Assembly (NCBI GenBank): GCA_937929885.1 | Contig: CALFUQ010000128.1 | Coordinates: 1 to 35,972 of the forward strand | Reading direction: 5' to 3' | Length of the DNA: 35,972 bases | Source of the DNA: an uncultured Saprospiraceae bacterium | GTDB lineage: Bacteria > Bacteroidota > Bacteroidia > Chitinophagales > Saprospiraceae | Shown here: piece by piece, positions 32,138 to 35,972 of the stretch | How the letters are laid out: every line of letters begins with the position of its first letter | Position numbering within the stretch: position 1 is the stretch's first letter | Translations under genes and position numbers: made by a program | Notes under the pieces: model-generated | Told to the model about the DNA's origin: nothing | Database searches by the model: none | The model's input: the letters and a program-made list of their open reading frames with translations, nothing else

Positions 32138-33799
32138 ATGGATACGATATTTGGATTGATTGGAGGAATTGTAGGAGGAGCTGTGTTGGCTTTTGCTGTA
32201 GTCTCAGCGTTCCTAAAGAAGAATAATTCTAGTAAGATAGAGGAGGCAAATAAAAAGGCAGACCTTCAACTAGAAGAAGCAAGAATTACCGCTAAGAGGA
32301 TTACTGATGATGCTAACCATAAAGCTGAGAAAATAGTAGGTGGAGCAGAAGCTAAGAATGAAAAAATCAAGCAGAAAAAGATTAACGAGGCGAAAGATAA
32401 ATTCGCTAAGCTAAAGTCAGATTTCGAAAGTAAGAAAGCTGATCACAAAGTAGAACTCAAAGAGCGTGAGATGAATGTTAAGTCTCTAGAGAAGGAGCTT
32501 AATCAAAAGAAATCTGCTTTTAAAGAACAACTAGAATCTATCGAGCACCGTGAATCTGAAGTGGAAGCGATTAGAGATAATCTAGACAAGCAAATCAAAA
32601 TAGTAGGTAAGAAGAAGGAGGAACTGGATAATGCTAATGATAAAATAATAAATCAGTTAGAGTCAATCGCACAGATGACACAAAGCGAAGCTAAAGAGCA
32701 GCTACTAGAAGCAGTAAAAGCTAAAGCCAATACTGACGCAATGGCAATCGAGAAGGAAGCTATCCAAACAGCAAAACTCAATGCCAATAAAGAAGCGAAG
32801 AAGATAGTGATCCAAAGCATCCAAAGAATGTGTGCAGAGTACACTATTGAGAATACAGTATCAGTATTCAATTTAGAGTCTGATGATATCAAAGGTCAGA
32901 TAATAGGTAGAGAAGGAAGAAACATTAGAGCGTTAGAAGCTGCAACAGGTGCTGAGATAGTAGTAGACGATACGCCAGGAGCAATTGTGATTTCGAGTTT
33001 TGATCCGATTAGAAGGGAAGTTTGTAGATTATCCCTTAAGCGATTAGTTGCAGACGGTAGGATCCATCCAGCCAAGATCGAAGAGACGGTAGAGAAAACG
33101 AGAAAGCAACTTAAAGAACAAATAGTAGAGATAGGCGAGCGTACTGTTATTGATTTAGATATCCATGGTTTTAAGCCAGATATTATCAGAATGATAGGAA
33201 GGATGAGATTTAGATCTTCTTATGGTCAGAACTTACTCAAGCACTCTATCGAAACCGCTAATCTATGCGCTGTGATGGCTGCTGAGTTAGGACTAAGTGC
33301 CAAACAAATAAAAGTTGCAAAGCGAGCAGGGCTACTTCATGATATAGGAAAAGTAGCGGATGAAGAATCTGAATTACCACACGCATTACTAGGTATGGAG
33401 ATATGCAAGAAAGCAGGCGAACACGCTGTTGTCCTCAATGCTGTAGGAGCTCACCATGACGAGATAGAGATGAACAATATAGTATCTCCGATTGTACAAG
33501 CTTGTGATGCTATATCAGGAGCAAGGCCAGGTGCAAGAAGAGAAATAATGGATAGTTACCTTAAGCGTATTGGAGACCTAGAAGAGTTAGCAATGGGATA
33601 TGAAGGTGTCCAAAAAGCCTATGCGCTCCAAGCGGGTAGAGAATTAAGAGTTATCGTAGAGAGTGAGAAGGTATCTGATCAATTTGTAGACGATTTATCA
33701 TTTATGATATCAAAGAAGATCGAAGAGGAAATGCAATACCCTGGGCAGGTCAAAGTGACTGTAATAAGGGAAAAGAGAGCAACATCATTTGCTAGATAA
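32138..33799 (+). CDS. rny: ribonuclease Y
   Basis: A 553-residue membrane-anchored endoribonuclease that starts mRNA decay. An N-terminal membrane helix (about 5-25) is followed by a long charged coiled coil (30-215), a KH RNA-binding domain (about 245-305, [24 protein letters not shown]) and an HD domain with His369 (LLKHS) and the HD pair His401-Asp402 ([10 protein letters not shown]), then the RNase Y C-terminal domain ending with a basic tail. Length is slightly above the usual 510-520, mostly in the coiled coil. An intrinsic terminator follows, so rny is transcribed separately from the ATP synthase genes. A hairpin immediately upstream may affect its expression. Confidence 0.96.
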
Positions 33800-33827: not shown

Positions 33828-33867
33828 AATGGCTCAGGCAAAATTAAAGTCTGAGCCATTTTTGTTT
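33828..33867 (+). terminator. intrinsic terminator after rny
   Basis: AATGGCTCAG (33828-33837) pairs perfectly with CTGAGCCATT (33851-33860) across a 13-base loop and is followed by TTTGTTTT. It begins 28 bases after the rny stop codon. Confidence 0.88.
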
Positions 33868-33960
33868 TAAGTTTCCTAAAGAATATAGTTCGGTCGGGTT
33901 TTAGCAGTTTTTACATCTAAAAAACTATAAGTATAGCTATTAAATCAGGCTATTTAAAGT

Positions 33961-33968
33961 TACTTTTG
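33961..33968 (+). promoter_or_regulatory. -7 promoter element of the ATP synthase operon
   Basis: TACTTTTG matches TAnnTTTG, is the same octamer as in the hppA promoter, and lies 33 bases before the atpB ATG, after the rny terminator. The upstream TTTG is not clear. Confidence 0.5.
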
Positions 33969-34001
33969 TGGCAAAATTAAGACCTGCTAAAAGGGCTTTA
34001 G

Positions 34002-35396
34002 ATGAAGAATTTACTAACCTCGTTTTTACTCATTTTTTCCCTTTCGATCACAGCTTCTGCTCAGCAACACGATCATGAGCAGCATGATGGGCACCAGCAC
34101 TCAGATCATGACGGGCATGATCACATTCAAGAAGCAGATCCAGCGCTAAAAGTTCCCAATGCTGGAGGAGCTCATATTGATGGAGATAATCATCACCAAA
34201 CTGACGGACATACACATGCTGGAGATCATGGAGCACATCATGAGCCTAACGCATGTGGAATTGTAACTCATCATGAATTCGATCCTGGAGCTTTAGCGTT
34301 TCACCACATCAGTGATCAGAATGTTTACAATGTTGGTCCTTGGAAATTTCCTTTACCATGTATCCTTAAGACTCATGGTTCTAAAAAAATAGAATTCTTT
34401 TCATCTGGAAAGTTTAATGCGGATTATCACATGACTGGTACAAATGCCTATAATGGTTATGTACTGTACGAAGGGATAGTTCGAAGAGTAGTTGGAGATT
34501 TTCCTGATGGTTTAATTGATATAGGCCATAACGCTTTAGGTGTAGAACAAGAAGAAGTAGACGGTAAGGCTAGAGATGTAGTTTACTTATGTCATAACGG
34601 GAATAAGTTAAGATGTGATAATAAGAGCACACTTGACGGAGGACTGTTTGGAGGAGGAATAACTTCTTTTACAGATTTCTCGATTACTAAGAATGTACTT
34701 TCGATGATTTTCATGGTATTCTTGATGAGTTGGTTGTTCTTGACTATAGCAAAGAGATATAGAGAAAGGGAAGGGAAAGCGCCGTCGGGAGTTCAAGGGT
34801 TGTTTGAACCTATCATAGTCTTTATACAAGATGAAGTTGCAAAGCCATTTATAGGGCACAAGTGGGAGAAGTTCTTACCATTCTTACTGACAATTTTCTT
34901 TTTTATTCTAGGCTTGAATTTGTTTGGTCAGATTCCTTTTTTAGGAGGATCTAATGTTACAGGAAGTCTTTCAGTTACTATGGTTCTAGCGATTATCGCA
35001 TTCTTAGTGACTAACTTAAATGGAAACAAACATTACTGGGAACATATATTCTGGATGCCTGGAGTACCTGCATGGGTCAAGACTATTTTGACACCCGTGG
35101 AGTTTTTAGGTGTATTCATTAAACCATTAACCCTCATGCTGCGATTGTTTGCAAACATAACTGCAGGTCATATGGTAATGGTGATTTTTGTGAGTTTGAT
35201 TTTTGTCTTTAGTAAAAACGGAACATCAGTACTGGGCGGATATGGTACATCCATCGCGTCAGGCTTGCTGACAGTATTTATGATGGCTATCGAGTTGTTG
35301 GTGGCATTCATACAAGCATTCGTATTTACAATTTTGACAGCGAGTTATATTGGCGCTGCTGTAGAGGAGCACCATCATGCTGAAGAGCATCATTAA
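34002..35396 (+). CDS. atpB: F-type ATP synthase subunit a with signal peptide and His-rich periplasmic head
   Basis: A 464-residue Fo subunit a; the membrane core is normal but the N-terminus is greatly extended. Residues 1-20 form a signal peptide (ending TASAQ), residues 23-102 contain 20 histidines mixed with Asp and Gly, and a further non-membrane part runs to about residue 225 with four Cys (one at residue 85, then in LPCIL, YLCHNG and LRCDN). The membrane domain (about 230-455) has the proton-path arginine at 381 in LMLRLFANITAGH and ends with another His cluster (EEHHHAEEHH). An N-terminal extension with a signal sequence is known in Bacteroidota AtpB; the density of His here is striking. 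It is the first gene of the operon, followed by atpE and atpF. Confidence 0.95.
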   Translation: MKNLLTSFLLIFSLSITASAQQHDHEQHDGHQHSDHDGHDHIQEADPALKVPNAGGAHIDGDNHHQTDGHTHAGDHGAHHEPNACGIVTHHEFDPGALAFHHISDQNVYNVGPWKFPLPCILKTHGSKKIEFFSSGKFNADYHMTGTNAYNGYVLYEGIVRRVVGDFPDGLIDIGHNALGVEQEEVDGKARDVVYLCHNGNKLRCDNKSTLDGGLFGGGITSFTDFSITKNVLSMIFMVFLMSWLFLTIAKRYREREGKAPSGVQGLFEPIIVFIQDEVAKPFIGHKWEKFLPFLLTIFFFILGLNLFGQIPFLGGSNVTGSLSVTMVLAIIAFLVTNLNGNKHYWEHIFWMPGVPAWVKTILTPVEFLGVFIKPLTLMLRLFANITAGHMVMVIFVSLIFVFSKNGTSVLGGYGTSIASGLLTVFMMAIELLVAFIQAFVFTILTASYIGAAVEEHHHAEEHH

Positions 35397-35421
35397 TAGA
35401 GTTTATTTTTTTTAATCATAA

Positions 35422-35640
<219 letters not shown>

Positions 35641-35653
35641 ATAAACTAATTAA

Positions 35654-35696
35654 CTGATACGCCGACAACGGTTGGTTGTTGGTGTATCAGCCTTTT
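35654..35696 (+). promoter_or_regulatory. large intercistronic hairpin between atpE and atpF
   Basis: Bases 35654-35669 pair with 35675-35690 over 16 positions (two G-T wobbles, no mismatch) around a 5-base loop, followed by CCTTTT. It starts 14 bases after the atpE stop and ends 13 bases before the first atpF ATG. It could be a partial terminator or an RNA end-protecting structure that raises atpE mRNA over atpF mRNA. Confidence 0.8.
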
Positions 35697-35703
35697 AAAA
35701 ATT

Positions 35704-35972
35704 ATGATTATGAATTTAATTGTATTACTAGATTTCAATCCGATAAAACCAGACTTAGGGCTTATCCTCTGGACAACAATATTTTTCTGTCTCTTCTGGT
35801 GGCTAATTGGTAGAAGTGCTTTTAGACCAATAAAGGATGCACTAAAGTCAAGAGAGGAAGATATCCAAGGTGCATTAGATGAAGCTAAAAAAGCAAAAGA
35901 AGAAATGGCAATGATGAAGGCTGAAAACGAAGCACTCATCGCTCAAGCAAGAGAGGAGAGAGCTCAAATTCT
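35704..35972 (+). CDS. atpF: F-type ATP synthase subunit b, 3' truncated by window edge
   Basis: The first 89 codons are present and the frame is open to the last base. A hydrophobic N-terminal helix (about 18-37, LGLILWTTIFFCLFWWLIG) is followed by GRSAFRPIKDALKSREEDI and a charged helix (DEAKKAKEEMAMMKAENEAL), the usual opening of the subunit b stator stalk. Two in-frame ATGs (35704 and 35710) are possible starts. It follows atpB and atpE in the standard order. Confidence 0.93.
   Translation, partial: MIMNLIVLLDFNPIKPDLGLILWTTIFFCLFWWLIGRSAFRPIKDALKSREEDIQGALDEAKKAKEEMAMMKAENEALIAQAREERAQI

Follow-up and report, generated by a model that had tools for sequence, protein, structure and literature searches.

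A predicted, conserved 3' RNA hairpin of the ATP synthase gene atpE in the class Bacteroidia

The atp locus and its hairpin

The stretch of DNA analyzed here (the window; 35,972 nucleotides from an uncultured Saprospiraceae bacterium) closes with an F-type ATP synthase operon that runs off its end, in which atpB, atpE, and a truncated atpF can be read (Table 1). Transcription of the unit probably begins with atpB. TAnnTTTG is the -7 promoter consensus of the Bacteroidota, and we take the octamer upstream of atpB to fit it; judged by its pattern, this octamer is a possible promoter of atpB-atpE-atpF. Immediately 5' of atpB lies the RNase Y gene rny (RNase_Y_N, KH, and HD domains; 32138-33799). 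Because rny occupies this place in only 7 of the 69 named loci whose upstream sequence extends 1.5 kb or more, we regard its position as a local arrangement and reject a functional link between rny and the atp operon. Inspection by eye places a terminator-like hairpin after rny (33829-33869), with TTTTTGTTTT and a loop unlike that of the hairpin described below.

Table 1. Features of the atp locus in the window
Feature	Position	Strand	Basis
TACTTTTG, match to TAnnTTTG	33961..33968	+	pattern match only
atpB, ATP synthase a subunit	34002..35396	+	ORF; Pfam PF00119 (ATP-synt_A), E 3.5e-56
atpE, c subunit, 68 aa	35434..35640	+	translation; Pfam PF00137 (ATP-synt_C), E 3.4e-16
Hairpin, left arm CTGATACGCCGACAAC	35654..35669	+	sequence and fold
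Hairpin, GGTTG pentaloop	35670..35674	+	158 GGTTG and 43 GATTG among 221 hairpins
Hairpin, right arm GTTGTTGGTGTATCAG	35675..35690	+	sequence and fold
Spacer CCTTTTAAAAATT, 13 nt, with short T run, reaching the atpF start	35691..35703	+	sequence
atpF, b subunit, truncated at contig end	35704..35972	+	ORF; Pfam PF00430 (ATP-synt_B), E 1.3e-10

An earlier note, made from the window alone, had described a hairpin between atpE and atpF with a 16-pair stem and a 5-base loop. Sequence, fold, and shuffles all confirm this structure, which spans 35654-35690 and includes G-U pairs. The segment 35642-35703 has a minimum free energy of -26.3 kcal/mol (z = -7.06), as compared with -9.0 ± 2.45 in its shuffles, 0 of 200 of which were as low; when 201 bases are folded, the hairpin persists in the prediction, but the sequence as a whole stands out less (z = -1.78; energy equaled or undercut by 10 of 200 shuffles). 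The same note had pointed to a short T run. The stem is indeed followed by CCTTTT, ending at 35696, but the run consists of only four T beginning 3 nt past the stem, and a consensus terminator scan that required five T in eight did not list the window's atpE hairpin. TAnnTTTG does not occur between atpE and atpF in the window. A search of positions 34000-35972 against Rfam (release 15) returned no matches at E up to 1, and 17 related loci returned none at the gathering cut-off.

A constant loop on a drifting stem

The 160 bases that follow atpE were compared across 332 distinct regions, of which 300 belong to the window's class and 32 to other classes of its phylum. We use order, class, and family as kinship labels and take the name Bacteroidia from record titles. 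The 300 class regions comprise 206 that are mainly from the window's order, among them a few named records from elsewhere in the class (e.g., Formosa and Draconibacterium), and 94 from other orders; a 129-genome class sample contributed regions from some of its genomes, beginning with the 30 best atpE matches. Hairpins were scored by fold, at -12 kcal/mol or lower with a GNNTG loop. This test replaced a filter for at least five uninterrupted pairs, under which counts were lower (96/206 and 49/94) because the pairing of many stems is broken near the apex by a mismatch or small internal loop, and the loop pattern was broadened from GN[AT]TG to GNNTG.

A GNNTG hairpin follows atpE in 221 of the 300 class regions (156/206 and 65/94), with a median energy of -22.5 kcal/mol, and in none of the 32 regions from other classes. 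It appeared in 0 of 300 class regions read on the reverse strand, in 2 of 1500 dinucleotide shuffles, and in 0 of 297 control windows placed 250-410 nt past the atpE stop, mostly inside atpF. Counted by genome, the hairpin is found in 189 of the 240 read and in 49 of 72 families: 78/87 genomes in the window's own family, 42/55 in the rest of the order, and 69/98 in other orders, two of these 98 coming from outside the 129-genome class sample. No GNNTG loop was seen in the remaining 79 class regions, nor, among the genomes read, in 23 of the 72 families. The loop is strongly conserved, a feature absent from the earlier note: GGTTG accounts for 158 of the 221 hairpins and GATTG for 43, followed by GGATG (8), GAATG (4), GCTTG (3), GCATG (2), and GTATG, GCCTG, and GTTTG (1 each). 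Among the carriers of GGTTG is a cultured one, Flavilitoribacter nigricans DSM 23189 (L060).

The stem, by comparison, varies while its pairing is kept. Among the 221 hairpins, themselves selected on fold and loop, 194 close with C-G and 27 with G-C, and the second pair is A-T in 116, G-C in 101, C-G in 3, and G-T in 1. In an alignment of 40 rows, picked for diversity and for at least 10 of 11 pairs, 96.1% of cells are paired, and the covariation score is 1.147 as compared with 0.271 when shuffled (0/500 shuffles). This alignment holds 203 cells with two-sided changes versus 56 in shuffles, and pairing drops from 96% to ~40% once the partner is shifted by one column. Of five covariation measures, one did not discriminate, namely how many pairs show two-sided change at all (11 versus 10.1; 134/500 shuffles). 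Since the choice of the 40 rows favors pairing, the figures for the first two pairs over all 221 hairpins are the safer evidence. The earlier note had looked to relatives for conservation with compensatory changes, and this expectation is borne out by the 221 of 300 class regions and by the two-sided changes that keep the stem paired.

We therefore regard the hairpin as a real structured RNA element that lies, with a strongly conserved loop, on the 3' side of atpE in most class regions read. Its being functional is close to certain, and sequence comparison across the Bacteroidia marks it as a conserved RNA element belonging to the 3' side of atpE. Because GRUUG appears in the loop on the sense strand alone, the recognized form is presumably RNA rather than double-stranded DNA. 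The retention of G-R-U-U-G while the stem drifts suggests a factor that recognizes the loop.

A second type of loop was counted by eye in ~19 of the 79 class regions without GNNTG. Here, an outer stem leads through a small internal loop or bulge to an apical pentaloop, ACAGG, AAAGG, ACAAG, or GAAGG, that is closed by C-G; Sediminibacterium and Limnovirga are named carriers. Because this frame, a short apical stem with a pentaloop ending in G, resembles that of GRUUG hairpins with an internal loop below the second pair, the sequences suggest that both types are one element with a lineage-specific loop. Regions in which the second type (ACAGG/AAAGG) was seen after atpE include L085, L086, L087, L094-L096, L106, L110, L194, and L202.

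Genomic placement and the T-rich tail

A covariance model was built from the 40 rows, which are mostly from the window's own order, and its E-values are rough. In the window's own genome (89.5% complete), where all 149 first-look candidates were scored, the model gave one match at E up to 10, the atpE hairpin itself (E 1.4e-4). In the 129-genome class sample, it found 45 genomes (E up to 0.1). The position immediately downstream of atpE accounts for all 34 matches with E < 0.005 and for 39 of the 46 with E up to 0.1, the other seven being elsewhere where ~13 chance matches are expected; 59 candidates per genome were scored in this search under stricter filters, and further copies could be missed. 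A search of 60 relatives, with 127 candidates scored per genome, matched 40 of the 60 at E up to 5. Among the 60 genomes, the window's own included, 13 of 16 matches with E < 0.005 follow atpE; of the three that do not, a pair sits opposite long open frames, and the third (L428, genome G090) is intergenic. The latter, at ~1316-1342, is a hairpin with the same GCGGTTGGC apex in a place with no long open frame, and it is not G090's atpE copy. A weaker match (L251), in a genome with no atpE match in the genome search (G103), falls between an atpE-like frame and atpF. The atpE-like sequence 5' of this GGTTG hairpin appears to be split over two frames, which could be an assembly error.

The preference for this place also holds within the operon. 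In 68 loci whose next genes could be read, hairpins of -10 kcal/mol or lower were found in 66 atpE-atpF spacers, 18 atpF-atpH spacers, and 9 atpH-atpA spacers, as well as in 18 of the 68 90-nt stretches before atpE; the last is the fairer control, because the atpE-atpF spacer is longer (median 100 nt versus 27.5 and 34 nt for the two that follow). GNNTG loops were found in 40 of the atpE-atpF spacers and in none at the other three sites. Although atpF lies within 1.5 kb downstream of atpE in 325 of the 332 regions, in seven regions it was not found next, and three of these have a GNNTG hairpin, one has the second loop type, and three have neither (L309, L316, and L348). The GGTTG hairpin is kept where atpF stands ~1.1 kb further on (L174/L242), and loops GCTTG and GTTTG are present in two regions whose available sequence shows no atpF (L314, 730 bases, and L298, 328 bases, respectively), as is the second type in a third (L191, 908 bases). 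Few as these cases are, persistence of the hairpins without an adjacent atpF favors an element of atpE over an element of atpF. The ~1.1-kb gap between hairpin and atpF in L242 (G090) contains reverse-strand open frames that share repeated peptide stretches.

The stem is followed by a tract rich in T. Counted from the outermost G-C pair, which lies a median of 16 nt past the atpE stop, tail positions 1-6 are 57, 65, 64, 59, 60, and 51% T, and the proportion falls to 28% by position 8 and is about 29% further on. At least four T in eight were found in 155 of 221 tails as compared with 54 of 221 stretches 15-22 nt further on, and a run of at least four T occurs near the stem in 98 of 221 hairpins versus 16 of 221 in the background. 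The T run is nevertheless short and interrupted by A. The tail is terminator-like but weak.

The distance from hairpin to atpF has a median of 41.5 nt (n = 198) and ranges from 13 nt, its value in the window, to 237 nt. TAnnTTTG occurs in 4 of 197 such spacers where 7.3 occurrences are expected. We reject an independent atpF promoter on the grounds of spacing and pattern; 28 of the 197 spacers are shorter than 30 nt, and in the longer ones the pattern is the sole ground. Given these short spacers and a promoter match no more frequent than expected, the downstream genes are probably reached by read-through, and any termination at the hairpin would then be partial. Tail and position together fit either partial termination or protection of the atpE 3' end.

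A candidate role in c-subunit supply

We propose the following model. The atp genes would be transcribed from upstream of atpB, and some RNA polymerases would stop at the hairpin; alternatively, cleavage of read-through RNA in the A/U-rich sequence past the hairpin would leave the hairpin as a block to 3'-to-5' exonucleases. By either route, atpB-atpE RNA would become more abundant than atpF-atpH-atpA RNA, and the higher level of atpE RNA would help to meet the need for many c subunits. The loop G-R-U-U-G would be recognized by a factor, most likely a protein, that tunes the termination or protection step. As a whole, this combination of a leaky terminator or 3'-end stabilizer, a step in RNA level, and a loop-reading factor that adjusts the step is the reading toward which we lean, and we consider it reasonably likely. 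An increase of atpE RNA by the hairpin is likely in itself, and a dedicated loop-binding factor is plausible.

The simplest competing account is that the loop is not read at all and that a plain stem acts, through its stability, as a weak intrinsic terminator or exonuclease block. The T-rich tail and the stable stem agree with this, as do the strong hairpins with no shared loop that follow atpE in 12 of the 32 regions outside the class (no more than 1 of 30 shuffles reaching so low an energy) and the several class regions whose strong hairpins carry other loops. We nonetheless find it improbable, since it leaves unexplained both the conservation of the loop in 49 families despite a changing stem and the clustering of model matches at atpE, seen in the sole match of the window's genome and in the 34 of 34 matches with E < 0.005. 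A generic stable terminator loop is rejected as well: ACGGTTGGT occurs eight times in the window's genome, only the atpE-atpF copy sits in a stable matched stem, and the covariance model has a single place there. Similar doubt attaches to a translational insulator, a hairpin that prevents reinitiation at atpF by ribosomes coming off the heavily translated atpE and thereby lowers b-subunit synthesis. The position 13 nt before a start codon falls in the typical ribosome initiation footprint, and the window's stem ends there; the short distance from the atpE stop to the outermost G-C pair would suit this account also. However, a distance to atpF that varies from 13 to 237 nt, and the four regions that retain a hairpin of either loop type where atpF was not found next, speak against it.

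Retention of the loop rather than the stem, on the sense strand only, would equally be expected if the hairpin were the end of a 3'-derived small RNA with the loop as its seed, or if the loop kissed another RNA. Yet a class-wide five-base seed would need an equally conserved partner, and no nearby CAACC or CAATC tracks the loop variant in the search near the hairpin, so we think this unlikely too. We also reject a cis pairing partner of the loop, as the CAACC, CAATC, and CATCC motifs in its vicinity show no correspondence with the loop variants. Sites of CsrA/RsmA carry GGA in the loop; the window's loop is GGTTG, and GGA is present only in the 8 GGATG loops of the 221. Finally, the hairpin is palindromic and intergenic, as a DNA repeat, REP, or mobile hairpin would be. 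We consider such an element very improbable, because the stem is variable, the hairpin is on one strand (0/300 reversed) and has one preferred place, and the window's genome, searched at E up to 10, holds one model match rather than many dispersed copies.

Among known systems, an intrinsic (Rho-independent) terminator shares the strong, stable stem followed by a T-rich tract. The atpE hairpin departs from it in that the tract is short and A-interrupted, that the next gene of the operon begins 13 nt away in the window, and that the loop is conserved in a hairpin whose model matches nothing else in the window's genome. In chloroplasts, atpH/atpF intergenic RNA is protected by PPR proteins (cf. 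BFA2), which similarly concerns RNA end protection around the c-subunit gene; there, the protein binds single-stranded RNA, and the lineage is unrelated. The L17 downstream element (RF01708), as covered in part of its description, is likewise a structured RNA tied to a single conserved gene, in its 3' untranslated region, but it differs in gene, phylum, and structure (PMC2864571).

The published precedent comes from Clostridium cellulolyticum, in which a set of selective RNA processing and stabilization (SRPS) stem-loops, one of them in the atp operon, has been proposed to set subunit ratios (PMC4423207, here and below in the parts covered). The c-subunit gene of that operon, Ccel_0267, has processing sites at both ends and a 3' stem-loop, and its transcript is 3-5 fold above those of its neighbors (PMC4423207). 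The atpE hairpin is likewise a 3' stem-loop of an operon-internal gene, and of the corresponding gene of an atp operon. In C. cellulolyticum, however, 28 of 33 SRPS stem-loops lack a U run, whereas the Bacteroidia hairpin has a T-rich tract, and those parts of the source describe no conserved loop, whereas the Bacteroidia pentaloop is common to many families (PMC4423207). By analogy, we infer that the Bacteroidia hairpin may serve the same purpose with the addition of a loop-reading factor. The proposal in the earlier note, partial termination or protection of an atpE 3' end, is partly supported, in that tail and position agree with it; the excess of c over b that it envisaged would be an RNA-level effect on stoichiometry, which is plausible and has the Clostridium case as a precedent.

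The excess of c subunits in other bacteria is set mainly by translation, to which the production of about ten c subunits per one or two of their neighbors from one operon is usually credited. Present downstream of the c-subunit gene in 49 of the 72 families read, a hairpin with a strongly conserved loop suggests a separate, inherited control at the RNA level in a major bacterial group, and the loop points to a putative RNA-binding factor. It is tempting, if tentative, to extend the model to an ancient regulatory RNA of the Bacteroidia, in which a dedicated protein that reads GRUUG would feed back on read-through or decay and match c-ring supply to the remainder of the ATP synthase. Were this so, it would constitute an RNA-protein switch for ATP synthase stoichiometry of which literature searches found no description. 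Among the matches listed in those searches, titles and abstract openings do not describe the element, and an earlier description is possible. The main texts of two papers on candidate structured RNAs (PMC2864571, PMC8040213) do not mention atpE or ATP synthase, nor do those of three papers on Bacteroides or Flavobacterium RNA (PMC7366714, PMC11697453, PMC9723704) mention "ATP synthase." The element should be easy to test, because it comprises ~40 bases, gave a single match in its own genome, and offers a loop that can be exchanged while the stem stays intact.

Outside the class, four regions of one family (f82; L365, L368, L371, and L376) have hairpins of -33 to -37 kcal/mol in a 70-nt test directly after atpE, with unrelated loops. 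Hairpins this strong in another class suggest that the theme of a hairpin downstream of atpE may be more widespread.
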